This document shows, piece by piece, positions 3,653-59,776 of a stretch of 64,000 bases of DNA. Origin of the DNA: Nodularia spumigena CCY9414 (lineage in GTDB: Bacteria > Cyanobacteriota > Cyanobacteriia > Cyanobacteriales > Nostocaceae); contig NZ_CP007203.1 of the NCBI RefSeq assembly GCF_000340565.2, positions 3,204,955 to 3,268,954 on the forward strand, given 5' to 3'. The notes under the pieces are model-generated. The model worked only from the letters and a program-made list of their open reading frames with translations, was not told the origin of the DNA and ran no database searches. Positions within the stretch are counted from its first letter, which is position 1, and each line of letters opens with the position of its first letter. The position numbers and the translations under genes were made by a program.

Positions 3653-5833
3653 GTGATTTCTCATTCTACTTGGATTGTTGGCGCTAGCCGCAGTGGTAAA
3701 ACGGCTCGTTTGGTAGATATTTTTAGTGATTGGTTGCAAAGTGAAAATCATGTTCGGGCATCATTTTATACTAAAAACTCAGACGCTCTCAAAGGCGGGG
3801 CGATAGCGCCAGATTCACATCTCCAAAAAACAGCGCCGAGAGTTTTGGTTTTAGCTGCTAATAGTGAAAATCGCCGAGAATTGGCTGATAAAATTGTGAC
3901 AGCAACTCAAGGAAAATATCCAGTTCGTGCTAAGACGATGCTCGGTTTTTTTCAAGATGAAGTTATTTTATTTTGGCCTTTATTAATTCAGTCGTTAAAA
4001 CTCAAAGCACAGTTTCCGGTAAGATTACGCCCTGAAACTGAACAGGAATTAGCCACGAAACTTTGGCATTCTCAGTTAAATACAGCCACTTTGCAATCTG
4101 CGGGAGTCAATGAGTCCCGTTTGGTACGTCGGATTCTGGATTTATTCCAATTGGCTGCTTACAGTGGTACACCTTGTGAAGATATTGCCCAGATTTTGCA
4201 CACAGGTTTACCAGAAAATGCCATAGATTTAGAGCCGGAGTTTTTGGTATCTTTATTATTAGATTGGCGCGACTGGTGTTTAGAAAGGGGATTACTTAGC
4301 TATGGGATAATTACTGAACTTTATAGTCAGAAGTTATTAAGCGATCGCCATTATCAACAACACTTAACTCAACGCTATCAAGCTGTACTCGCAGATGATG
4401 TCGATGATTATCCTGGGGTAGCGCGTCAACTATTTGATTTTTTATTGAATCAAGGTGCAGTGGGGGCTTTTAGCTATAACCCTGATGGTGCAGTGCGTCT
4501 AGGTTTGGGAGCAGATCCCCAATATTTGGCAGGTTTAGCCGAACGTTGTCAAATTGAGACATTAACCACATCACCCTTACCCAGTCTAGCAGAGCAACTT
4601 TTGACCCCAATGGTGGAGTTAGTCACAGAATCAATGATGCTGTCTAGTTTACCAGACTCAGTGCAGTTAATTCAAACGACCTCCCGCGCCCAATTATTAC
4701 GGGACACAGCCGAGGAAATTGCGAAAGCGATCAATTCGGGACAAGTACAAGCAGAAGATGTGGCAATTATTGCACCGGGTTTAGATGCGATCGCCCGTTA
4801 TACTTTAGTAGAAATCCTGAGTAAACAAAACATCCCCGTCGAATCACTCAACGAGCAACGTCCCTTAATTAGTTCACCTGTGATTCGAGCCTTACTCACC
4901 ATGCTGGCTCTAGTTTATCCCGGTTTAGGTCGCCTTGTAGATCGAGAAGCCGTAGCCGAGATGTTAGTTATCTTTAGTAGAAAACCAGAAATCTCCACCG
5001 ACCACACCCCACTCCCCACACCCCACTCCCCACTCCCTATTCCCCACACCCCACTCCCCACTCGCATCGACCCAGTACGCGCCGGATTAATTACAGATTA
5101 CTGTTTTAAACCTCATCCCGATCATCCCCACTTGCTCCCAGTGTCAGCATTCGAGCGCTGGGATAGAATTGGCTATGCAGCTACCACAGCTTATGGTGAA
5201 ATTTTGCAGTGGTTAGAAAAACAACAAGCAAAGGATTTGATTCCCAGTCCAACTTCTCTGTTATATCTAGCAATGCAGGACTTTATCTGTAAAGATCATC
5301 ATCCTCCCTACGAAGAAATGGCAGCATTGCGGGAATTACTGGAAACAGCCCAACATTATTGGGAAATTGACACCCGTTTAAGACAAATAACCCCCAGAAC
5401 AGCAGGGGGAGAACTCCACACAACCATTGCCGAATTTATACACTTACTCCGACGTGGTACTATTACCGCCAACCCTTACCCCTTGCGTCCCATCGGCGCA
5501 GCCAGAAAAGCTGTCACCTTAGCAACTATTTTCCAATATCGTTCTAGTAGAAGATTTCACCGTTGGCATTTTTGGTTAGATGCTGGTTCTCCTCTGTGGA
5601 CAAAAGGTGGCGCAGCGACGCTATTTGCAGCGCCGTTGTTCTTGCGAGACAGGTTAGGCGAACGTTGGACAGCAGAAGATGAAAATCTACTAGAAGAAGC
5701 AAGATTGCGAAAAATCCTAGCAGATTTACTGTCTCGTGTCGGTGAAAAAGTTTATTTATGTCACAGCGACTTAGCCGTAAATGGTCAAGAACAAATAGGT
5801 CGGCTGTTGCCTTTGGTACAATCGTTTGTGTAA
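3653..5833 (+). CDS. UvrD/AddB-like helicase, 'recombinase family' protein
   Basis: A 726-residue protein starting at GTG after a strong AGGGGAGGA ribosome site. It has a P-loop GASRSGKT at residues 10-17 and, around 345-415, a block (AEEIAKAI, EDVAIIAPG, ISSPVIRALL) resembling the C-terminal half of superfamily-1 helicase/AddB-like proteins. I recall such proteins as 'recombinase family' in Nostoc. A DNA-repair role is inference; no helicase motif III-VI set could be fully assigned. Residues about 450-470 are Pro/His/Thr repeats encoded by a CCCCACTCC-type repeat that sits in frame. The divergent neighbour is pcxA, 87 bases away. Confidence 0.7.
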   Translation: MISHSTWIVGASRSGKTARLVDIFSDWLQSENHVRASFYTKNSDALKGGAIAPDSHLQKTAPRVLVLAANSENRRELADKIVTATQGKYPVRAKTMLGFFQDEVILFWPLLIQSLKLKAQFPVRLRPETEQELATKLWHSQLNTATLQSAGVNESRLVRRILDLFQLAAYSGTPCEDIAQILHTGLPENAIDLEPEFLVSLLLDWRDWCLERGLLSYGIITELYSQKLLSDRHYQQHLTQRYQAVLADDVDDYPGVARQLFDFLLNQGAVGAFSYNPDGAVRLGLGADPQYLAGLAERCQIETLTTSPLPSLAEQLLTPMVELVTESMMLSSLPDSVQLIQTTSRAQLLRDTAEEIAKAINSGQVQAEDVAIIAPGLDAIARYTLVEILSKQNIPVESLNEQRPLISSPVIRALLTMLALVYPGLGRLVDREAVAEMLVIFSRKPEISTDHTPLPTPHSPLPIPHTPLPTRIDPVRAGLITDYCFKPHPDHPHLLPVSAFERWDRIGYAATTAYGEILQWLEKQQAKDLIPSPTSLLYLAMQDFICKDHHPPYEEMAALRELLETAQHYWEIDTRLRQITPRTAGGELHTTIAEFIHLLRRGTITANPYPLRPIGAARKAVTLATIFQYRSSRRFHRWHFWLDAGSPLWTKGGAATLFAAPLFLRDRLGERWTAEDENLLEEARLRKILADLLSRVGEKVYLCHSDLAVNGQEQIGRLLPLVQSFV
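5003..5063 (+). repeat. CCCCACTCC-type tandem repeat inside a coding gene
   Basis: About 60 bases of ACCCCACTCCCCAC-like units lie in frame within the helicase-like gene and add roughly 20 residues of Pro/His/Leu/Thr. The same repeat type occurs outside genes near 18690, 25160 (as its complement GGGGAGT), 44205 and 57520. Confidence 0.8.
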
Positions 5834-27980: not shown

Positions 27981-28036
27981 CGCCTTGCGGTACTAGGTGA
28001 ACTACCCACACTGACTTGGAGTACCAAGTACAGTGT
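27977..28036 (-). ncRNA. candidate omega RNA 3' end of TnpB element, with guide
   Basis: Read on the minus strand, ACACTGTACTTGG-TACT-CCAAGTCAGTGT forms a near-perfect hairpin (28008-28036) followed by GGGTAGTTCAC, as at the right ends of cyanobacterial IS605-group elements. The tnpB stop TAG is inside GGGTAGTTCAC, so the RNA scaffold overlaps the coding end, as known for TnpB omega RNAs. The first 20 bases beyond the end (27977-27996) would be the guide: CTAGTACCGCAAGGCGGAAG. The boundary may be off by one or two bases. Confidence 0.5.
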
Positions 28037-29282
28037 CGGCTTCTGTACTCACAGGGGAATGCCGCAACTTAGACTTTCGCCCCAGCCTTGGTCTGACATC
28101 CCCTCCTACAGCAGAGACGGCTGAACCTTCCGCCTTGATCCCTTCGGCTTCGGTTCCATCGAGCGAAGTCGAGATGCTCAGGGCAAGCATTCTGATCCCC
28201 TCGGCTCTAATATTGAGCGCTGCGTTTCCATCACGGTCATGATGAGTACCACAATGAGGACAAGTCCATTGCCTCACATCCAATGGCATCTCACTCACTT
28301 GATGGAAACAATTAGAACAGAGCTTGGAACTGGGGAACCATCGATCAATTTCAACGAACTTTCCACCTTTACGCTCTAGCTTATAGGCTAGAAAATTGGT
28401 GAACGTTCCCCATCCACAATCAGAAATTGCCTTCGCCAAATTGTGATTACAAACCATGCCTTTGACATGAAGATTCTCTACTATGACAGCTTGGCTATCG
28501 CTGACCAACTTATAACTCAGTTTATGTAGAAAATCTTGCCTAGAATTGCTAATTCGTTCATACACTTTAGCGACAATTTTACGATATTTATTTCTTGAAC
28601 TGCTCCCTTTTTGTTTACGGGCTAACTTTTTCTGCTTACGCTTGAGGTTTTTCTCATGCTTGGCAAGGTGCTTAGGATTATCATATTTAGAAACCTTTTC
28701 ACCATCAGTTACAACAGCAAAGTGCTTCAAACCTAAATCAATACCATAGATCTTACCGAATGTAATAGTTGGATTTTCTCCTTCTACTTCAGTCAGGATA
28801 GATGCGAAATATTTACCTGATGTTGTTTTGCATACAGTTACAGTCTTGATTTTTCCCTCAATAGTCCTATGTATTTTGGCTTTGACTATGCCAATATTGC
28901 CTGGAAGTTTGACATTGCCATCGACAATTTTGACGTGTTGAGGATACTGAATAGACTGTTTACCATGCTTAGATTTGAACTTAGGAAACCCAGCACGCTT
29001 CTCAAAAAAGTTTTTGTATGCTGTGGTTAGATTGAGTGTTGTTGCCTGTAAAACTTGGCTATAACAATCGGCTAACCATACAGTCTCTTCTGCCTTTTTG
29101 AGCGCCGGAAGAAACGCGTTGAGTGCTACACGGCTAAGTCCCTTGCCCGTTTCTCTGTAAGTTTCAATTGACTGATTTAGAGCGTAATTCCACCACCAAC
29201 GAGCGCAACCAAATGTTTGAGCTAGTTGTATTTCTTGTTCTTTTGATGGATACAAACGGACTTGCACAGCTTTGTGTAACAC
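28002..29282 (-). CDS. tnpB: TnpB, IS200/IS605-family RNA-guided nuclease
   Basis: A 426-residue TnpB. The N-terminus (MLHKAVQVRLYPSKEQEIQL, WWWNYALNQSI) is the usual helix-turn-helix region. The RuvC triad looks intact: D182 in YGIDLGLKHF, E269 in VIVENLHVKG, and the DRD at 349-351 in HHDRDGNAALN. The zinc finger is C322/C325/C341/C344. After residue 360 a tail of about 65 residues is partly encoded by a dispersed repeat (SLDGTEAEGIKAEG). It starts at GTG behind AAGGAGGTGAT, an exact match to the 16S tail. No TnpA lies beside it, so it cannot move by itself. TnpB proteins cleave DNA guided by an omega RNA from the element's end. Confidence 0.93.
   Translation of the reverse strand: MLHKAVQVRLYPSKEQEIQLAQTFGCARWWWNYALNQSIETYRETGKGLSRVALNAFLPALKKAEETVWLADCYSQVLQATTLNLTTAYKNFFEKRAGFPKFKSKHGKQSIQYPQHVKIVDGNVKLPGNIGIVKAKIHRTIEGKIKTVTVCKTTSGKYFASILTEVEGENPTITFGKIYGIDLGLKHFAVVTDGEKVSKYDNPKHLAKHEKNLKRKQKKLARKQKGSSSRNKYRKIVAKVYERISNSRQDFLHKLSYKLVSDSQAVIVENLHVKGMVCNHNLAKAISDCGWGTFTNFLAYKLERKGGKFVEIDRWFPSSKLCSNCFHQVSEMPLDVRQWTCPHCGTHHDRDGNAALNIRAEGIRMLALSISTSLDGTEAEGIKAEGSAVSAVGGDVRPRLGRKSKLRHSPVSTEADTVLGTPSQCG
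28123..28200. repeat. CGAAGTCGAGATG-type repeat in the tnpB tail
   Basis: CCATCGAGCGAAGTCGAGATG and adjoining CTTCGGCTTCGG words, common as dispersed repeats in Nostoc-type genomes, are read through in frame at the C-terminus of TnpB. Confidence 0.5.
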
Positions 29283-36609: not shown

Positions 36610-36986
36610 GTGATGAATACAGCAATTTCCCAGTAAATCAAGTAAACATCTTAATTTTAGAACTCTTGTGGGGGTGGGTATCTTTGCCCTCCCTTCTCTA
36701 CATTTTCAGTATAAGTAGGTCGGCGTAAATAAAGTTAACTAGCTAGGGTCGTCATTGGTCATTTGTCATTGGTCATTAGTAAGGGTTTAAGTCCTGTTTA
36801 CGAGTCGTAACATAGTTTGGTTTATTCATGCTTACCTACTTATCTAATAAATTCACAATCAGATAAAAACATTTAACATTGAAATCATCATTTTAATTAC
36901 ATATATTATTCATGGGATTAATTATATCTATTTAATATTCCCGTGAACACAATATTTATACTTTCAAATTTGGAGAATTATTGTTG
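36610..36986. other. gap with heptamer repeat before the NGNW protein
   Basis: Contains AACTCTTGTGGGGGTGGGTATCTT-type sequence (36660-36685), the inverted relative of the 31-bp tandem unit at 60962. It also has a GTCATTG/GTCATTT heptamer array (36749-36781). The rest is AT-rich, with GGAGAATT before the next start. Confidence 0.6.
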
Positions 36987-38102
36987 ATGGAACTAGATGC
37001 TATCAACTCGGTTAATGGTGAGGAAAATACTTCAATTAGTGATGATTCGGCTCTAGGACCGCCTTTTGAGGGACTAGATGCAGTTTTAGCTGAGAATTTA
37101 CATTTAAGAGACACTAATAATCTCTCTGGGATGAATGGAGGAAACACTCCTGTACTAGATACCGTTATTGATCCGTTCGCAGGCGATGTTAGCGGTCAAC
37201 TTAATGAATTAATTTTTGGTCGCTTGGATTTAATTCAGAGTCAAAACTCCTTCGATGGCGTTGATAACGCCTTTGTTGGTGGCGGTAGTAACTCATTTCC
37301 AGTTGGCAATGGTAACAGAAACTTTGGTAGTGATAACGCAACTATTGGTAATTCTAACTCAGACTATGGTAGTGATAGCGCCACTATTGGTAATGGTAAT
37401 TGGAACTTTAATGATAATAATGTAACTATTGGTAATGGTAACTGGCTATTCGCAAGTGACAATACAACCCTTGGTAATGGTAACTGGTATTGGGATGATG
37501 GCAGTAACAATGCAACTCTAGGTAATGGGAATTGGCAGTTTAATAGTGACAATTCAACTATTGGTAATGGTAACTGGGGGTTTGGTAATAATAATACAAC
37601 TCTTGGTAATGGTAACTGGGGGTTTGGTAATAATAATACAACTATTGGCAATGGTAACTGGGACTTTGGTAATAACAACACAATTATTGGGAACGGGAAA
37701 TGGATCTTTGACGATAACAATATAGTGGTTGGTGATTACAAAATTCCCCAGGATTCAGAGTTAATTCCCCCAGAATTTCAGGGTGATGTTGATAGCTTAA
37801 TTAACTCTCTTATCGGCAGTATGGGTGAAAAGTTTCTGCCGTTAACAGGAGATTTGGGCGGATCGGAGACAGAAACCTTTAATCGGCTGATTCTTTCTCA
37901 AAACAATGGTAATATGTCTACAGATGTTGAGGAGTTTTTGGCTTTACTCAATGAGATTCAAACCAATGCGATCGCTTACCAGCATTGGCAAAAGCCTGAG
38001 CCTGTCCCAGAATCTGCATCTTCAGTGTCACTGGTAGTAGTTGGACTCGTCTATTTGCTATTGTCGAAATTCAAACAAGGATTTTGCCGCCAACCAAGGT
38101 AA
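36987..38102 (+). CDS. 14-residue NGNW-repeat protein with PEP-CTERM-like tail
   Basis: A 371-residue protein. After an acidic N-terminus without a signal peptide, residues about 104-250 consist of ten 14-residue units (one is 16) of the form TIGNGNW-F-NNN. This pattern should form a beta-solenoid, with Asn ladders. The C-terminus has VPESASSVSLVVVGLVYLL followed by Lys/Arg, close to a PEP-CTERM sorting signal (motif, membrane helix, basic end). It therefore may be exported and anchored or processed by an exosortase system, although the lack of a signal peptide is at odds with that. I do not know a named family. ATG at 36987 is chosen over an upstream TTG. Confidence 0.65.
   Translation: MELDAINSVNGEENTSISDDSALGPPFEGLDAVLAENLHLRDTNNLSGMNGGNTPVLDTVIDPFAGDVSGQLNELIFGRLDLIQSQNSFDGVDNAFVGGGSNSFPVGNGNRNFGSDNATIGNSNSDYGSDSATIGNGNWNFNDNNVTIGNGNWLFASDNTTLGNGNWYWDDGSNNATLGNGNWQFNSDNSTIGNGNWGFGNNNTTLGNGNWGFGNNNTTIGNGNWDFGNNNTIIGNGKWIFDDNNIVVGDYKIPQDSELIPPEFQGDVDSLINSLIGSMGEKFLPLTGDLGGSETETFNRLILSQNNGNMSTDVEEFLALLNEIQTNAIAYQHWQKPEPVPESASSVSLVVVGLVYLLLSKFKQGFCRQPR
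37297..37735 (+). repeat. 42-bp coding repeats (NGNW)
   Basis: About ten tandem 42-base units (GGTAATGGTAACTGG core) encode the solenoid of the preceding protein. Central units at 37560-37680 are the most alike, pointing to recent expansion or conversion. Confidence 0.85.
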
Positions 38103-53249: not shown

Positions 53250-54653
53250 TTATAAATCAGTGATTAATCTGGCTCTTCTCAGGATAAATTGCATAGCTGT
53301 TTCCTCTTTAGAAATAATGTCAGCTTTGGTATTCATACCTGATTGGATGCGACAATGGCGATCGCCATTGCCAAATGTCATATTTACTGGTTGCACTGTG
53401 GCTTCAAAATAACTACCTGCTGTAGCAGCACTAGAGGCTGCACCCATGTTATTTGCAGTTGTCATTACATCTGGAGATATGTTAGTAACCACAGCCTTAA
53501 GAGTGCCATAATCAGGATATGGACAAGCATCAACACGTAATAGCACGTCTTGACCAATCCCCACCTTTTGTATATCTGCCGTGGGAATCATCGCTTTAAT
53601 CACCAGAGGTGCATTTTGAGGAACGATTTCCGCCACAGGTTCGCTCGCACGCACAACTTGGCCAGGGTTGCGTAAATTCAGCTTGAGAATAATACCGTCG
53701 CTGGTAGCACGAATAATGTTACCTTGGACTTCGTTTACTACTTGTTGCAGCTCTTGTCGCAATTGGTAGAGTTGATTTTGCATATCAACTCGCCGTTGAA
53801 TTAACGCTTGTTTTTCTTTGTTCAACGTAGCGATGCTGGCTTCACCCCTAGCAGTTTCTTGAAGAATGCGGATTTGAGCAATTTCTACCGCCGCCTGAGA
53901 AGGATTGAGGACTGCTTGTGCCAAGTTTACTTTACTTTGGGCAATCTGCACCGCTTCTTTGGCGGCTACTAGGTTCGATTTCGCTTGAGCTACTAAGAGA
54001 CTTTTCTCATCATACTGGCTGTTACTAACCACGCCACTTTCTGACAATCCCTTGTAGCGATCGCTTTCCGTTTGGGCGTGTGCTAACACAGAACTAGCTG
54101 TTTGTAATTGAGCTTGTGTTCTTCGCAATTCCGCTTCTGCTACTTTTAATTCACTGTTAGTAGCAATTTCCCGGTCTTGATAGTCTCTTTGATTACGTGC
54201 TAAATCAGATTGCGCCGCATAAACCGTCTGCTGTATGACTCTTTGTTCTGCCAGCATCTGATTATCTAAAGACTCAAGTTGGGAATTAATTTGAATTAAT
54301 TGTAAACTGTTTTGTTGAATACTTCCTTGTAATTGACTTTGCTTAATTTGCAAATCCTGAGAATCAAGAATAGCAATTATATCTCCTTGTTTGACCACCT
54401 GATTTTGTTGAACTAGAATCTTTTCAATACTGCCTTCTTTTGGTGGTTGTACAACTCGAACTTCTCCTGTAGGACGAACAGTAGCCGTAGTTTTGACTGT
54501 CACATTATATTTTACAAATGAAGACAGAGCGACCGCAGAAACAACCGTTCCCACCAGCGTCACTCCAGCTAAAGAAGTCCAGATACTAACCGGAGGCAGA
54601 AAATCCTCAGTTTTAACACTTGGAAGGATTTTTTCGCTATGAGTATAAAGCAT
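53250..54653 (-). CDS. HlyD-family adaptor of peptide exporter
   Basis: A 467-residue membrane-fusion protein. A single anchor helix covers residues 24-47 (IWTSLAGVTLVGTVVSAVAL). The lipoyl half-motifs (VRVVQPPKEGSIEKILVQQNQVVKQGDIIAIL and RATSDGIILKLNLRNPGQVV) enclose a long coiled coil of Gln/Ala/Ser-rich heptads (about 100-320). A beta-barrel region follows. It links the inner-membrane exporter to an outer-membrane channel (TolC/HgdD-like, not in this window). It lies 25 bases after the C39 ABC gene on the same strand, so they form an operon. Confidence 0.92.
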   Translation of the reverse strand: MLYTHSEKILPSVKTEDFLPPVSIWTSLAGVTLVGTVVSAVALSSFVKYNVTVKTTATVRPTGEVRVVQPPKEGSIEKILVQQNQVVKQGDIIAILDSQDLQIKQSQLQGSIQQNSLQLIQINSQLESLDNQMLAEQRVIQQTVYAAQSDLARNQRDYQDREIATNSELKVAEAELRRTQAQLQTASSVLAHAQTESDRYKGLSESGVVSNSQYDEKSLLVAQAKSNLVAAKEAVQIAQSKVNLAQAVLNPSQAAVEIAQIRILQETARGEASIATLNKEKQALIQRRVDMQNQLYQLRQELQQVVNEVQGNIIRATSDGIILKLNLRNPGQVVRASEPVAEIVPQNAPLVIKAMIPTADIQKVGIGQDVLLRVDACPYPDYGTLKAVVTNISPDVMTTANNMGAASSAATAGSYFEATVQPVNMTFGNGDRHCRIQSGMNTKADIISKEETAMQFILRRARLITDL

Positions 54654-54678
54654 ATTCTTCTAGACCAATTACTACTAC

Positions 54679-56829
54679 TTAAAAACTTAAAAAATCTAAA
54701 TGTTCTCCTGGCTTATTCTTCAACTCTGCTAATTTTCCTTGCTCCTTTAACTTGCCATTTTCCAATAAAACTACCCAATCAGCCCGATTAATGACTCTAG
54801 GGCGATGAGTAATTAAAATTGTGGTTTTTCCGCGACGATGCTGAAATAATTGTTCTAAAACTTGCGCTTCACTCACCGGGTCTAGTCCACCTGTAGATTC
54901 GTCTAAAATCAGAATTGGTGGATCTGTAATTATCGCTCTTGCTATTGCTAACCTTTGGCGTTGTCCCCCAGAAATGTTTGCCCCAAACTCACCTAAAATA
55001 GTTTGATATTTCGCAGGTAGTTTAATAATAAATTCATCAGCTTCCGCAATTTTGCAAGCTTTAACAATTTGCTCAAATGAAGCATGGGGCGCTCCTAGTC
55101 GAAAGTTTTCTACTATGGAACGACTCCAAAAATGAGCATCTTGAGGAACCAGTATTACCTGTTGCCGTAAACAATCTAGAGCCAAGTCTTGGAGATTATA
55201 TAATCCTATCTGAATATTACCATAATTTATCGGGTATAACCCCGCTATTAGTTTGGCTATCGTGCTTTTACCACAACCAGATTTGCCAATTATAGCAGTA
55301 ACCTTACCACCAGGAATAGTCAAAGAAAAATCTTCTAAAAGTTCCAATCTCCCAGCATAGTGAAAATTCACATTACTGCAAACAATATCTGTATCACCGG
55401 GAATCATCGCAAAAGGCTTTTTCCCATCATTTTCATTCTCTGGGGTCGCGTCTATCACCTCTGTCAGACGTTCAGTGGCAGTTTTCACAATGGTGAATTG
55501 TTGGACAAAACCAATCACCGTCGCAATTAATCCCAAAAAATTAGCATTCATGGCGTTAAATGCGAATAACTGCCCGATGCTGAGATTTTCAGCCGGATTA
55601 ATTACTAAATAACCACCGAACCAGAGTAAAATTACACCGCCAATACTAGAAACAAAACTGGAAAAATTATTATTAATAATTCCAATCTGCATTGTCCGGA
55701 ATGCTAAGTTACTCAACAGTCCAAATTCACCTTGCAATTCATCTTTAAATTGTTGTCCTGACCTGGTGGTTTTCAGGGTGAGAGCGCCTTTAAATGTTTC
55801 TACTAACAACCCCTGCGCTTCTGCATACTTAACTAAAAAATCCCGGTTCTTTTGCTGTAAAGTCGGGAGAAAAACGATAGTGGATAAGGTCATGAATACA
55901 GCAATAATTACTGCTACTATGCTCAATTTCCAGCTATAGAAAATCATCAAACACAGAGAAATCAGTGCAATAAAAAAGCGGCTGGGTAAGCTGACAACTA
56001 CCTGAGATATTAATTGATTAATCTGGTCAATATCTCTGAGCCTACTGACAATTTCTCCACTCCGCCGGGCTTCGTAATAAGAAAGCGGTAATTGCAAAAT
56101 TTGCCGTCCAAAATCCAGCACTAACCCTAATTTCAAACGCTGGGCAAAGTGCGCGATTAAGTTAGACTGTACATAAGAAAGGCTAGTAGAAATTATATTC
56201 ATCACCACTACAGCCATGACTACTGTAGTCAGTAAACTTGTATCACCCCTCACTAGCACATCATCAGTCAGGATTTGCAGTAAAAACGGAGAAGCCAAAG
56301 ACAGTAACCCCAACATCAAGTTGAGAGGTAAAGCTTGGGCGAGTATTGTCCGATAAATCCAAACCCGTTTGAAGAAGCGAAAAAATCCCCCTACTTGGTC
56401 ATCTTCTTGGGCAAAAAAGCGGATGGGATCTGGTTCTAGTAACAACATTAACCAGTCTGTCCAACCCTTTACTAAATCTTGGCTAGACAGATAACGCATT
56501 CCCACAGCTGGGTCAGCAATCAAATATTTTTTGCCTTTTTTACCGTAGAAAACTACCCAGTGATTTCCGTTCCAGTGAATAATTGCTGGTAAAGGTGCTT
56601 CATCCAAGCGCTTCAGTAACTCTGGTGAAGTAGTCACAGGTTTAGCAGTGAACCCCAGTGTTTCTGCACCCCGCCGCAGCCCTAACAAAGTTGTGCCAAA
56701 TTGTCCAGTCCCTACCACTTCCCGGACATGGCTGAGGGTAAAATTGCGCCCGTAATATTTAGAAATTGCCGCTATACAAGCTGCGCCACAGTCTTCTTCA
56801 CTATGCTGTCGAACAAATTGGTATTTCAT
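54679..56829 (-). CDS. C39-peptidase ABC exporter for double-glycine peptides
   Basis: A 716-residue exporter. The C39 peptidase has C14 in EEDCGAAC, H90 in GNHWVVFYG and D106 in IADPAVG, a complete catalytic set. The transmembrane ABC1 region covers about 160-450. The ATPase has GKSGCGKSTIAKL, ISGGQRQRLAIARA and ILILDESTGGLD. Such proteins cut leaders after Gly-Gly while exporting the peptide. Four genes with exactly such leaders lie upstream on the same strand. I choose the ATG at 56829 over a TTG two codons before it. Confidence 0.94.
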   Translation of the reverse strand: MKYQFVRQHSEEDCGAACIAAISKYYGRNFTLSHVREVVGTGQFGTTLLGLRRGAETLGFTAKPVTTSPELLKRLDEAPLPAIIHWNGNHWVVFYGKKGKKYLIADPAVGMRYLSSQDLVKGWTDWLMLLLEPDPIRFFAQEDDQVGGFFRFFKRVWIYRTILAQALPLNLMLGLLSLASPFLLQILTDDVLVRGDTSLLTTVVMAVVVMNIISTSLSYVQSNLIAHFAQRLKLGLVLDFGRQILQLPLSYYEARRSGEIVSRLRDIDQINQLISQVVVSLPSRFFIALISLCLMIFYSWKLSIVAVIIAVFMTLSTIVFLPTLQQKNRDFLVKYAEAQGLLVETFKGALTLKTTRSGQQFKDELQGEFGLLSNLAFRTMQIGIINNNFSSFVSSIGGVILLWFGGYLVINPAENLSIGQLFAFNAMNANFLGLIATVIGFVQQFTIVKTATERLTEVIDATPENENDGKKPFAMIPGDTDIVCSNVNFHYAGRLELLEDFSLTIPGGKVTAIIGKSGCGKSTIAKLIAGLYPINYGNIQIGLYNLQDLALDCLRQQVILVPQDAHFWSRSIVENFRLGAPHASFEQIVKACKIAEADEFIIKLPAKYQTILGEFGANISGGQRQRLAIARAIITDPPILILDESTGGLDPVSEAQVLEQLFQHRRGKTTILITHRPRVINRADWVVLLENGKLKEQGKLAELKNKPGEHLDFLSF

Positions 56830-56996
56830 GTGCAAGTAATGATGAAATTCCCCCAGAAACAGCTACCCGATTCGGCTTCAGGCAATTTTATGAATAATAT
56901 CAAATTCTTCATCAATACCCATAATAAAATTTATGTTGCTAAGTTTGGGTGGGAAAACAGTCACTAGGGCGTGTTTTAAAAGTCTAGAAGTAGTCT

Positions 56997-57092
56997 AAAA
57001 GTAGGTTGGGTTAAGCGCAGCGCCACCTGTACGAAGCAAACCAAATATTGGGTCAAGTTGGGTTGGCCAAAACCTCAACCCAACCTACTTTT
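56997..57092. repeat. inverted-repeat element AAAAGTAGGTTGGGTT
   Basis: Perfect 16-base inverted ends (56997-57012 and 57077-57092) around 64 bases. The GTAGGTTGGGTT word is a frequent dispersed repeat in cyanobacteria. It sits inside a direct duplication of about 20 bases, roughly 167 bases apart, that differs at one base. Confidence 0.75.
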
Positions 57093-57272
57093 ACTACATT
57101 TACGTCTAATTTTGGGTGGGAAAACAGTCCCTAGTGTGGGGTTCTTTTTATGCATCTTTATATTCAATTGGTATTACTTGAATTAAAAGTGTTAACCACA
57201 GATGATATAGTTGGCAACTTTATGCTTCTATGTGGTTGGGCAATATTTTCAGCTATCGTTAGAGTGCCTATT

Positions 57273-57361
57273 AAAAATGGTCAGCTATTAGTTGGGAGTC
57301 TATCACGACCAGATAATTATTGCTAATTATACGACCCAAAAATAAATAGCTGACCATTTTT
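57273..57361. repeat. 17-base perfect inverted repeat around AATGGTCAGCTATT
   Basis: AAAAATGGTCAGCTATT (57273-57289) and its exact complement (57345-57361) bracket 55 bases. No coding capacity; it could be a small mobile element or a terminator-like structure. Confidence 0.65.
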
Positions 57362-57660
57362 TAAACTGGAAATGGAAAATTTAGTAAATGATTTTCAAGC
57401 TATCACTTTTACTCACTATCTATTTATGAAACACTTATGCAGATATAGGACTCCTATTTGATTTCTGTTGGCGTAGCCTGCGCTTTGCGCTTACAACTCA
57501 AAAAGCTGTTTCCTACTCCCCACTCCCTACGGACCACTCCCCACCTACGCAAGTAAGTATGGCTACGCCACGCAAGCTATCAAAAATCAAAGCGGATTAC
57601 TATATTTCAGTTGATGTCTGGTAAAATGTGAAAAAAGCTCTAAAATTCAATTTTCTCTGA

Positions 57661-57975
57661 CTATGGATTTACAGGTCCTGGGTTGGGGGGATTTGGATTT
57701 GGCTCTGGCTCTGGCTCTGGTGGCATAGGAGGCATAGGAGGCATCATAGTCAAAATATTCACAGTCAAACCAGTTGTTGAAACTGTGTTTGAAGAATTAC
57801 CACCGCCTGCTATACTACCGCCCGGACCAGATTGAGCGAATGAAGTAGAGTTAGTTTGTTGGGCAAAAAATGAAGTCGATGCTCCATTCAGATTTAAAGT
57901 CCCATTTTCAAGTAAGCCACCACTTATGGTTTCTTGCTCTGCAACAGATACTTCTGTAAATAATTGGTCAAACAT
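57661..57975 (-). CDS. double-glycine precursor peptide 4, Pro-rich tail
   Basis: A 104-residue precursor. Leader of 20 residues, MFDQLFTEVSVAEQETISGG, with the export cleavage expected after GG. The mature part (84 residues) has no Cys, Lys, Arg, His or Trp. It starts Leu/Asn/Ser-rich and Gly-rich, then ends with MPPMPPMPP and PEPEPEPNPN-type tracts. The Pro tail is unique among the four peptides. It is the copy closest to the exporter. Confidence 0.82.
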   Translation of the reverse strand: MFDQLFTEVSVAEQETISGGLLENGTLNLNGASTSFFAQQTNSTSFAQSGPGGSIAGGGNSSNTVSTTGLTVNILTMMPPMPPMPPEPEPEPNPNPPNPGPVNP

Positions 57976-58113
57976 TGTGTTTATTTCTGGTTATTAGGAA
58001 TCTTTACTAGAAAGCCTTTTCCCTATCAGGTTTACGTAGCCCTGTAGGAAAACTCAGGTAATACTGAGCTATATTTGACAGAGGGAAACTAAATGAAATT
58101 CATCTGTTGAAAT

Positions 58114-58182
58114 TTAATTTAAATTCACCAGATCAGATTTTTCCTGATCAAGAGATACCTGGGTAAACAATTGATCAGAAAT
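58114..58182 (-). pseudogene. decayed fifth double-glycine precursor
   Basis: Between two intact precursors, the minus strand reads (I)SDQLFTQVSLDQEKS then diverges to a TAA. It aligns with the leaders of the neighbours, including the upstream words AAGAGGTAAAACT against AAGAGATAAAAACC, but the start codon is ATT instead of ATG and no GG or mature part remains. Confidence 0.6.
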
Positions 58183-58263
58183 AGTTTTACCTCTTGGTGG
58201 TAACAAAATTTACCAGAGTTGCTAGATGTTTTTCCATCAACTCTGGTACGATTCATCAGCTAT

Positions 58264-58533
58264 TTAGAAACCGAATTGAGCGAACAGACTTGCTAGGTTG
58301 AAATCTGCTGGTATATCTAGTCCGTTTAAATTTGCACCTGATGTATTAACTCCAACGGAAGCATTTTCACCAGTTGCGATGCTACCGTCTGCATTAGACG
58401 CAGCATTAGTTATTGAAGCTGTTTGTAGTCCTACGAAAGTAGTACCACTAAAGTTCAAGCTGCCTATTGATAATCCACCAACTAGGGTTTCTTGTTGGCT
58501 TGCGGATAGTTCGTTAAACAATGGGTTGGTCAT
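58264..58533 (-). CDS. double-glycine precursor peptide 3
   Basis: An 89-residue precursor with the leader MTNPLFNELSASQQETLVGG. The mature peptide (69 residues) has no Cys, Lys, Arg, His, Trp or Tyr and is rich in Ala, Ser, Asn and Gly. It carries FVGLQTASIT near its start and NGLDIP near its end, matching peptides 1 and 2. AAGAGATAAAAACC precedes the ATG. Confidence 0.85.
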   Translation of the reverse strand: MTNPLFNELSASQQETLVGGLSIGSLNFSGTTFVGLQTASITNAASNADGSIATGENASVGVNTSGANLNGLDIPADFNLASLFAQFGF

Positions 58534-58595
58534 GGTTTTTATCTCTTGGTGTTAACAAAATTTACTTAAGTTAGTAGTATTTTTGACTACTAAAC

Positions 58596-58847
58596 TTAAC
58601 CGAAAATAGCCGCAAAAGTCAGGCCTTCAGGTAGATTCAATCCGTTTGCGGTGAAGGCTTCAGTGATAATTTCTATGTTGATAGTTTGTGAAGTTGATTC
58701 GCTACCACCATCTGGGGTAGAGGTGGTTACAGTTGAAGTGAACTGTTGACTGCCAAAAAAGCCGGTTTGACTAGAATTGATGGTAAATCCACCAACAACG
58801 GTTTCTTGTTGCTCTGAGGATACTTCGGTAAACAATTGGTTCAACAT
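58596..58847 (-). CDS. double-glycine precursor peptide 2
   Basis: An 83-residue precursor with leader MLNQLFTEVSSEQQETVVGG. The 63-residue mature peptide has FFGSQQFTSTVTTSTPDGGSE and NGLNLPEGL. It shares STPDGGS with peptide 1 and the NG(L/I)(N/D)(L/I)P motif with peptides 1 and 3. It has no Cys or basic residue. Same strand and spacing as its neighbours (about 60-110 bases). Confidence 0.85.
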   Translation of the reverse strand: MLNQLFTEVSSEQQETVVGGFTINSSQTGFFGSQQFTSTVTTSTPDGGSESTSQTINIEIITEAFTANGLNLPEGLTFAAIFG

Positions 58848-58959
58848 GATGATAATTTATGAAAATTGAGGACTATTATTGCAAGTGAGAAAGTTTACCT
58901 AAGTTGCTTGTCTGTGTAGGCAATTAACTCAGGGACGGATAACTAAATTAAGGGATCGG

Positions 58960-59208
58960 TTATGGCTGGGGAGCGGGAGCGCTGAAGAAGTTGGCAGGTA
59001 GATTGATTCCGTTAAAGGTTTCAGCAAAGGTGAGAACAATTACGTTTCCAGTTTCGCTGGTTGATTGGCTACCACCATCTGGGGTAGAAATTGTTTGTGT
59101 GAAACTGGTTTCTTGCAAGCCAGAAAAGAAAGTGGAACCAAAGTTAAATCCACCAGCTACAATTTCTTGTTGCTCTGAGGAGACTTCGGTAAATAATGGG
59201 TTTGACAT
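58960..59208 (-). CDS. double-glycine precursor peptide 1
   Basis: An 82-residue precursor, the first of the array. Leader MSNPLFTEVSSEQQEIVAGG. The 62-residue mature peptide contains FFSGLQETSF, STPDGGSQSTS and NGINLPANF and ends PAPQP. It has no Cys, Lys, Arg, His or Trp, so it is acidic overall. I recall similar cyanobacterial genes being annotated as 'CTB family bacteriocin', but nothing in the sequence demonstrates antibacterial action. Confidence 0.85.
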   Translation of the reverse strand: MSNPLFTEVSSEQQEIVAGGFNFGSTFFSGLQETSFTQTISTPDGGSQSTSETGNVIVLTFAETFNGINLPANFFSAPAPQP

Positions 59209-59776
59209 GATTGTGATCTCTTGGTATGAAGAAGTTTTACCATAATTAGTAGTCGTTTTAACAACTATAATTCTGGTTCGCCACTATAATAACCCCCTAT
59301 AATTCATAAGTCAATAAATATTTTTAACAAGCCTAATTACCTGAAACTACATACAGGCATTACACTTTTCGGAAATAAAGAGCAAGTCCTAAGTTGACAA
59401 TTAATAGACAAAGCTATACTTATATTGACAAAAATCAATATATATTTTAGGAAAAAATCAACTACTTGATATATAATACGGTGATATCAAGTATTGAATT
59501 GAGACTATTGCCGACGCGAAAACCAAGCAATGATGGTGGTAGTCTTTTTCAGAAACTTAATTGGAACACAATCGCGTCTGGCTAAGGCGTGAAAGTCTAC
59601 TGAGGGATAACTGCTCCCATGCTCCCGTTGAAGTAGAAAGTAAAGTCTAGTTTTGTCTAGGTTTTATATAGCAGGAAAAAGTGCAAAATATCCTTGGCTC
59701 AAAAATTTGAAGAGACATAGCACTGCTACGTCTCTTCATCTAGGGGTATCAGGAAATATACTGCGCTAAGGGGTGC
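59209..59776. other. promoter region of the peptide array
   Basis: About 570 bases between exbD and the first precursor, very AT-rich on the precursor side. A candidate promoter is at 59286-59314. The rest shows no gene. Confidence 0.5.
59286..59314 (-). promoter_or_regulatory. candidate promoter of the peptide genes
   Basis: On the minus strand TTGACT (59309-59314), a 17-base spacer and TATTAT (59286-59291) form a sigma-70-type promoter about 80 bases upstream of precursor 1. Confidence 0.45.

Follow-up and report, generated by a model that had tools for sequence, protein, structure and literature searches.

We analyzed a window of 64,000 nucleotides (nt) of the Nodularia spumigena CCY9414 genome (contig NZ_CP007203.1, positions 3,204,955 to 3,268,954; "the window" refers to this entire stretch) and found a secretion cassette that runs on the minus strand from 59208 to 53250 and comprises four genes for double-glycine (GG) precursor peptides, a C39 peptidase-containing ATP-binding cassette (ABC) exporter, and an HlyD-family adaptor, in this order. 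This cassette represents a known type, namely group III of the clusters catalogued in 2011. By analogy with EbfG1-4 of Synechococcus elongatus PCC 7942, we tentatively favor, at slightly less than an even chance, that this group III cassette exports bulk extracellular (coat or matrix) peptides rather than killing peptides. New here are a decayed fifth leader, a repeated hairpin in the 5' untranslated region (UTR; hereafter the hairpin-UTR unit), promoter-like and terminator-like sites, fast-drifting mature parts (cores) free of lysine (Lys), arginine (Arg), histidine, and cysteine, and the prediction of a beta-hairpin. The decayed member, the hairpin-UTR repeat, and the terminator-like hairpin are not described in the abstract, Results, and Discussion of the 2011 catalogue (PMC3140520). 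The genes and the gene remnant in the cassette are as follows.

58960..59208, minus: precursor 1, 82 amino acids (aa); leader of residues 1-20 ending in GG, core of 62 aa; NF038167 E-value (E) 3.9e-11, 43 bits.
58596..58847, minus: precursor 2, 83 aa; core of 63 aa, predicted to form a long beta-hairpin; NF038167 E 9.2e-11, 41.8 bits.
58264..58533, minus: precursor 3, 89 aa; core of 69 aa; NF038167 E 4.9e-8, 33 bits (cut-off 32).
58114..58206, minus: decayed fifth precursor, a leader-like frame with a stop before any GG and no core; E 0.0038 with the leader model described below.
57661..57975, minus: precursor 4, 104 aa; core of 84 aa with a proline-rich tail; NF038167 E 1.8e-10, 40.8 bits.
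54679..56835, minus: short-type C39 peptidase ABC exporter, likely starting at the ATG at 56829; identified by Pfam domains, motifs, and the 4ry2 alignment, with homologues in 80 named loci.
53250..54653, minus: HlyD-family adaptor; TIGR01843 E 4.1e-50 (below cut-off), PF13437 E 5.4e-18 (over cut-off); homologue in 74 of the 80 loci.

In a profile search, all of the four precursors exceeded the curated cut-off of the NCBIfam family NF038167 ("CTB family bacteriocin"; 32 bits), and the array is therefore not a chance constellation of small open reading frames (ORFs). The GG occupies residues 19-20 in every precursor. An earlier note, made from the letters of this DNA, had described four small genes with a 20-residue GG leader on the same strand upstream of the exporter and had given the CTB name for cyanobacterial relatives, and both points held. 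The four mature parts are paralogues rather than unrelated peptides, as they fell into a single similarity group in the core grouping described below. A remnant comparable to the decayed fifth precursor lies at 5397-5456 of a related array, L126 (leader model E 0.46). Precursor 1 corresponds by position to nsp31980 (NSP_RS14125), and from the gene order we take the four precursors to be nsp31980, 31970, 31960, and 31950.

The exporter passed the Pfam cut-offs of Peptidase_C39 (E 8e-35), ABC_membrane, and ABC_tran, and of these three only; no cyclic nucleotide-binding domain (CAP_ED) was listed by Pfam in this protein, which also scored below the cut-offs of all 25 NCBIfam models listed for it. 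The motifs with the catalytic cysteine (EEDCG), histidine (NHWVVF), and aspartate (IADPAVG) are present, as are the Walker A, signature, and Walker B motifs of the ATPase, and residues 3-705 aligned with the solved peptidase-containing exporter 4ry2 (E 1.3e-115). The C39 exporter with complete catalytic residues and the HlyD adaptor were thus rightly recognized in the earlier note. In the alignments with 80 relatives, the homologous region begins at residue 3 in 48, at residue 2 in 20, and at residue 1 in 11 (one is incomplete), and the ATG at 56829 is the more likely start codon because 48 of the 80 align from residue 3. The adaptor gene starts 25 nt past the exporter stop. PCAT1 is not known to work with an HlyD adaptor; the window exporter aligns with this type of transporter (4ry2), catalytic motifs included, but is adjoined by an HlyD adaptor gene. 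To call the cassette a full secretion system, as had been done, is too strong, since it encodes no outer-membrane factor; OEP-type genes are found elsewhere in the genome.

Group III, as defined by Wang, Fewer and Sivonen (2011), likewise combines a short C39-ABC exporter lacking an N-terminal nucleotide-binding domain with an adjoining HlyD gene and several precursors (PMC3140520). The window cassette unites C39, ABC membrane, and ABC ATPase domains without CAP_ED, has HlyD in the cluster, and contains no second ABC transporter, LanM, or SurA (the farther genes were judged by eye from the ORF lists). The same paper counts seven clusters in N. spumigena CCY9414, and its Table 1 assigns two to group III. 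We obtained six C39 matches in this genome; two of them belong to frames of ~720 aa, each with a leader array. Because two group III clusters are in print and two such frames were detected here, the window locus is very probably one of the two catalogued clusters. The other short-type C39 cluster (L124; C1:1438000-1452000 of the same genome) consists of three CTB-like precursors, a 505-aa ORF that is probably HlyD, the exporter, and four more GG precursors, one with a glycine-rich repeat core and another with a charged glycine/aspartate/arginine repeat. With a second ~720-aa exporter and its own array in the same genome, the description of the window exporter as "dedicated" goes further than its position allows, although we infer that it does serve the adjacent array.

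The association between leader and exporter was examined in the best 80 of 176 exporter relatives found, a set of named near relatives. The leader model was seeded from 136 regular-expression matches in the same 80 loci, so that the resulting count is not an independent one, but the seeding made no use of strand or side: all of the 188 leader ORFs at E < 1e-3 were upstream of the exporter on the same strand, with none downstream and none on the opposite strand. At least one leader ORF was present in 70 of the 80 loci. Among the ten loci without any, L024, L052, L072, and L085 hold at most ~1.3 kb upstream, and L052 holds one leader ORF overlooked by the model. Two seed matches located downstream of an exporter (L075 and L080) failed the leader model. 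HlyD homologues were detected in 74 of the 80 loci, 60 of them 1.5-4.5 kb past the exporter start. Furthermore, five Nodularia genomes contain 29 NF038167 members over the cut-off, each of which falls either inside the window or in a region that also contains an ORF of 716-749 aa whose N-terminus resembles, by eye, that of a C39 exporter (the C39 scan itself covered the CCY9414 genome); one genome (G001) has members over the cut-off at the second array only. At a wider scale (own genome included), NF038167 was matched in 15 of the 120 genomes sampled in the host order (5 over the cut-off) and in 82 of the 99 sampled in the host family (75 over the cut-off), all under a name that promises killing.

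A separate precursor of ~100 aa was often found directly before the exporter (L020 7427-7726 and L021 7657-7959; a core group of 24), and was reduced to remnants in L125 (5946-6035) and L126 (6157-6219). No lost copy of such an exporter-side precursor was found in the window by alignment with the relatives. One L079 precursor upstream of the exporter has masked letters in its core.

The array is accompanied by the following candidate signals.

59286..59314, minus: promoter-like site TTGACT-17-TATTAT before precursor 1, the highest-scoring (10/12) of 8 such matches in the region.
59209..59285, minus: hairpin-UTR unit before precursor 1; covariance model R1 71.4 bits (model member); hairpin -12.8 kcal/mol, z -4.3.
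58848..58943, minus: hairpin-UTR unit before precursor 2; R1 57.2 bits (model member); hairpin z -2.6.
58534..58610, minus: hairpin-UTR unit before precursor 3; R1 80.7 bits (model member); hairpin z -3.1.
58183..58256, minus: hairpin-UTR unit before the decayed precursor; R1 65.7 bits (model member); hairpin z -7.3.
57976..58057, minus: weakly matching, degenerate copy of the unit, located before precursor 4; R1 18.8 bits, E 0.12; hairpin z -0.9, no better than shuffles.
57262..57365, minus: long hairpin followed by a U-run, a probable terminator between array and exporter; -35.1 kcal/mol, z -5.7.

The number of promoter-like matches in the region (8) shows no excess over the shuffles (mean 9.8), and a site of the TTGACT-17-TATTAT type also precedes the first precursor of two related arrays, L125 and L126. 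The hairpin at 57262..57365 was aligned in the same two arrays and has no further match in the genome, apart from its own position read on the opposite strand; it is missing from the list of a terminator scan in which loops were limited to 3-8 bases. Another terminator-like site (59738-59708) separates the array from an ExbD-like gene. In a published survey of transcript 5' ends, nsp31980 has an end at 3264182 on the minus strand, in the last row of the top-50 table, with 25,978 reads (PMC3610870). In window coordinates this is 59228, which is 20 nt upstream of the start codon of precursor 1. Under phosphate starvation, the log2 changes along the array were 1.51, 1.10, 1.08, and 0.77 at day 7 and 1.75, 1.45, 1.31, and 1.16 at day 14; the four genes are tabled as CTB family bacteriocins, three being named as induced and the fourth staying below log2 1 at day 7 (PMC9846622). 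The promoter-like site, the terminator-like hairpin, and the induction falling along the array fit a single regulated promoter before gene 1, with transcripts mostly ending before the exporter. The same study reports that another bacteriocin cluster of the strain, which is very likely L124, is not phosphate-regulated (PMC9846622).

We regard the support for the hairpin-UTR unit as an RNA structure as moderate. The covariance model R1 was built from 12 chosen upstream sequences of the window and three related arrays, a set that omitted gene c of L126 (no hairpin), gene b of L127, and three regions of the gene-4 type. In these 12 chosen sequences, the pairing was kept in 75.8% of cells, whereas slid controls kept 22-44%; 4 of 500 shuffles reached the covariation score. 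On the other hand, pairs changed on both sides were in no excess over shuffles (316/500), a count that speaks for the possibility that the unit is a by-product of tandem duplication without any role of its own. This alternative, which concerns the unit and not the cassette, has somewhat less than an even chance in our judgment; it also accords with one precursor being decayed and one UTR copy degenerate, with an L126 precursor devoid of such a hairpin, and with the narrow distribution of the unit, whereas the kept pairing and the covariation score argue against it. As to the distribution, R1 detected four units in the window, the weak copy before precursor 4, and two chance-level matches at 37.4-37.6 kb (E 0.41 and 0.77). 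It found the four array units and one weak match (E 0.50) in the own genome, where 150 of 5175 first-look candidates were scored. Among the 80 exporter relatives, there were matches in three loci, each directly before a precursor, and one of them (L020) is the same locus as the model member L127. The unit was thus not found beyond Nodularia and its very near relatives, and the idea of a wide RNA family was discarded on the grounds of these 3 loci out of 80. Rfam returned two matches at E <= 1, both far below the gathering scores. Low-energy folds (<= -12 kcal/mol) precede 97 of 187 precursors of the relatives, but as 148 of 437 regions before large ORFs fold equally low, we make no general claim on low-energy folds upstream of precursors.

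The four cores of the window (62, 63, 69, and 84 residues; 6.5-8.4 kDa) have an isoelectric point (pI) of 4.05 and contain no Lys, Arg, histidine, cysteine, or tryptophan. Their calculated average masses, counted from the residue after GG, are about 6524, 6554, 6798, and 8445 Da. In three of the four Nodularia versions of the array, all 13 cores lack Lys and Arg. Between Nodularia arrays, the nonsynonymous divergence (dN) of the cores was 0.17-0.35, and the ratio to the synonymous divergence (dS), omega, ranged from 0.32 to 1.72; these are rough values of short sequences in 11 non-independent comparisons, from a set that omitted the L020/L127 array. The exporter had a dN of 0.046 and a dS of 0.47 (window versus L126). 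AlphaFold predicted a long beta-hairpin for precursor 2, with strands at 22-43 and 49-71 and a block with a predicted local distance difference test score (pLDDT) of ~90 over residues 31-60. The cores near the exporter relatives are unalike: 187 cores of relatives, together with the four of the window, were split into 42 groups, including groups of 37, of 28 (with the window's four), and of 24 glycine-rich cores, another 24 that are mostly exporter-side, 12 Lys/proline-rich cores with repeats, and smaller ones. The grouping was done without low-complexity filtering, and the glycine-rich groups are possibly over-joined; one of the 188 leader ORFs was omitted from the core counts because no core of 20 or more residues followed a GG/GA in it.

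Cysteine is absent from 181 of the 187 cores of the relatives. A lanthipeptide or other modified peptide was rejected as a candidate, since the four cores have no cysteine and no modifying enzyme was detected by NCBIfam among the nine window proteins scanned. The same nine proteins include no LanM-type enzyme, in difference to a lanthipeptide cluster (group IV), and none of the seven clusters of the strain encodes LanM according to PMC3610870.

We propose the following for the favored matrix function. The four paralogous CTB-family precursors would be transcribed strongly and together, probably under the control of the promoter-like site upstream of precursor 1. Given the established mechanism of C39 transporters and the gene order, we infer that the C39 domain cuts each precursor after GG, taking off the 20-residue leader, and that the exporter and HlyD, with an outer-membrane factor encoded elsewhere, release the mature peptides of 62-84 residues. 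These would probably stay unmodified, might self-associate through long beta-hairpins, and could serve as bulk material of a surface coat or of the matrix around filaments or in the bloom, more so under phosphate starvation. For the biological role, which the earlier note took as essentially open, clues are in print, namely the phosphate induction (PMC9846622) and an array with a biofilm and matrix function (PMC4997328, PMC9981879). In the latter, EbfG1-4/PteB of S. elongatus PCC 7942, there are likewise four GG precursors and a C39 exporter; the EbfG peptides are secreted, probably cut after GG/GA, and needed for biofilm formation (PMC4997328), and EbfG1-3 form amyloid (PMC9981879).

Extracellular material is favored over killing because transcription is strong, because the cores of three of the four Nodularia arrays drift while keeping their composition, and because the second array has glycine-rich cores. 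Further points for it are the likeness to the EbfG/PteB layout, the glycine-rich cores beside exporter relatives, and the failure to find an immunity-like ORF. In the 80 loci, 702 same-strand non-precursor ORFs within 3 kb upstream of the exporter were grouped, and none of the 12 largest shared groups was immunity-like; by eye, some were locus-specific neighboring genes, others overlapping frames, and others exporter-side precursors that had escaped the model (7 loci). No immunity-like small ORF was seen by eye in the window array either. This differs from a class II bacteriocin operon, in which an immunity gene lies beside the precursor. Mature class II bacteriocins are mostly cationic, which is the usual but not an absolute condition, whereas the window cores have no Lys or Arg and a pI of 4.05. 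These observations, together with the glycine-rich cores, tell against true bacteriocins acting as allelopathic killers of related cyanobacteria or competitors, and no functional test or killing assay of a CTB-family peptide was found in the openly licensed literature. We thus consider killing peptides unlikely but by no means negligible, as the window precursors belong by score, with nothing excluding them, to NF038167, a family whose name implies antibacterial activity (members are also tabled in PMC9679502), the phosphate-starvation induction is discussed as allelopathic in PMC9846622, and the cores evolve fast.

Several results weigh against the matrix function. The fast evolution of the cores (omega 0.32-1.72) is equally seen in antagonistic peptides. 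The model of precursor 2 is weak overall, with a predicted template modeling score (pTM) of 0.31 and a mean pLDDT of 69, and a structure search with it gave no match at E <= 0.001; the best non-significant matches (E 0.12 and up) were beta-hairpin stems of pore-forming proteins, which also count for bacteriocins. Curlin-type repeats, seen by eye in TQTAVN-like cores of the relatives, had no Pfam support in the proteins scanned. A profile search with NF038167 yielded no match at E <= 1 in the S. elongatus control genome, and mature EbfG is said to have no homology to proteins of other cyanobacteria (PMC4997328); EbfG appears to lie outside NF038167 by this profile, and the matrix function leans on analogy. 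The immunity search ranged over 3 kb upstream of the exporter only. As for the composition, Lys and Arg do occur in the remaining Nodularia version of the array, L020/L127, and only 24 of the 187 cores of the relatives are free of both, 95 of the 187 being net positive. The absence of Lys and Arg is therefore a local feature, and a general avoidance of the two residues was rejected on the count of 24 out of 187. Concerning the transcription as one array, the 5' end at 59228 is located ~12 nt past the hairpin and ~50 nt off the start predicted from the promoter-like site (about 59279), and it may stem from RNA processing or mark a second start; Operon-Mapper, a prediction and not a measurement, assigned a separate operon number to each gene (PMC9846622).

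The peptides might instead be signals between cells of a filament or bloom, the array providing several variants, as suspected for the substrate of HetC. Heterocyst formation in Nostoc PCC 7120 requires HetC, a protein with a cysteine-protease domain (PMC10986499), and the response to phosphate (PMC9846622) would suit a signal as well. Nevertheless, HetC carries a cyclic nucleotide-binding domain (PMC10986499), which Pfam did not list in the window exporter, and a strong 5' end with fast-drifting cores of 62-84 residues looks unlike a signal that one specific receptor would perceive. We regard signaling as improbable.

If the peptides are matrix material, their class is misnamed and its part in bloom formation can be tested. 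In a broader and, in our view, doubtful extension of the matrix function, most "CTB bacteriocins" of this cyanobacterial family would form a large and rapidly changing family of secreted structural peptides, for which one exporter line delivers interchangeable cores (beta-hairpin, glycine-rich, or repeat-type) to the outer matrix of filaments and blooms; those of Nodularia would be induced by phosphate starvation, translated from mRNAs with a stabilizing 5' hairpin, and hidden from tryptic proteomics by cores free of Lys and Arg. Without these two residues, trypsin would miss these particular peptides, and another protease is needed.

The cassette is neighbored upstream by TolQ/ExbB- and TolR/ExbD-like genes and downstream by a gene for penicillin-binding protein 2 on the opposite strand. 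Between array and exporter, the stretch 56948-57130 displays, by eye, a flanking direct repeat of 20-odd bases and an inner inverted repeat, and had no match in the alignment with L125 and L126. Farther away in the window, also judged by eye, a 426-aa protein resembling an OrfB/TnpB-type transposon protein is encoded at 28002-29282 (minus), and a 373-aa protein at 36981-38102 (plus) consists of NGN-type repeats and has, at its C-terminus, a hydrophobic segment resembling a surface-sorting tail.

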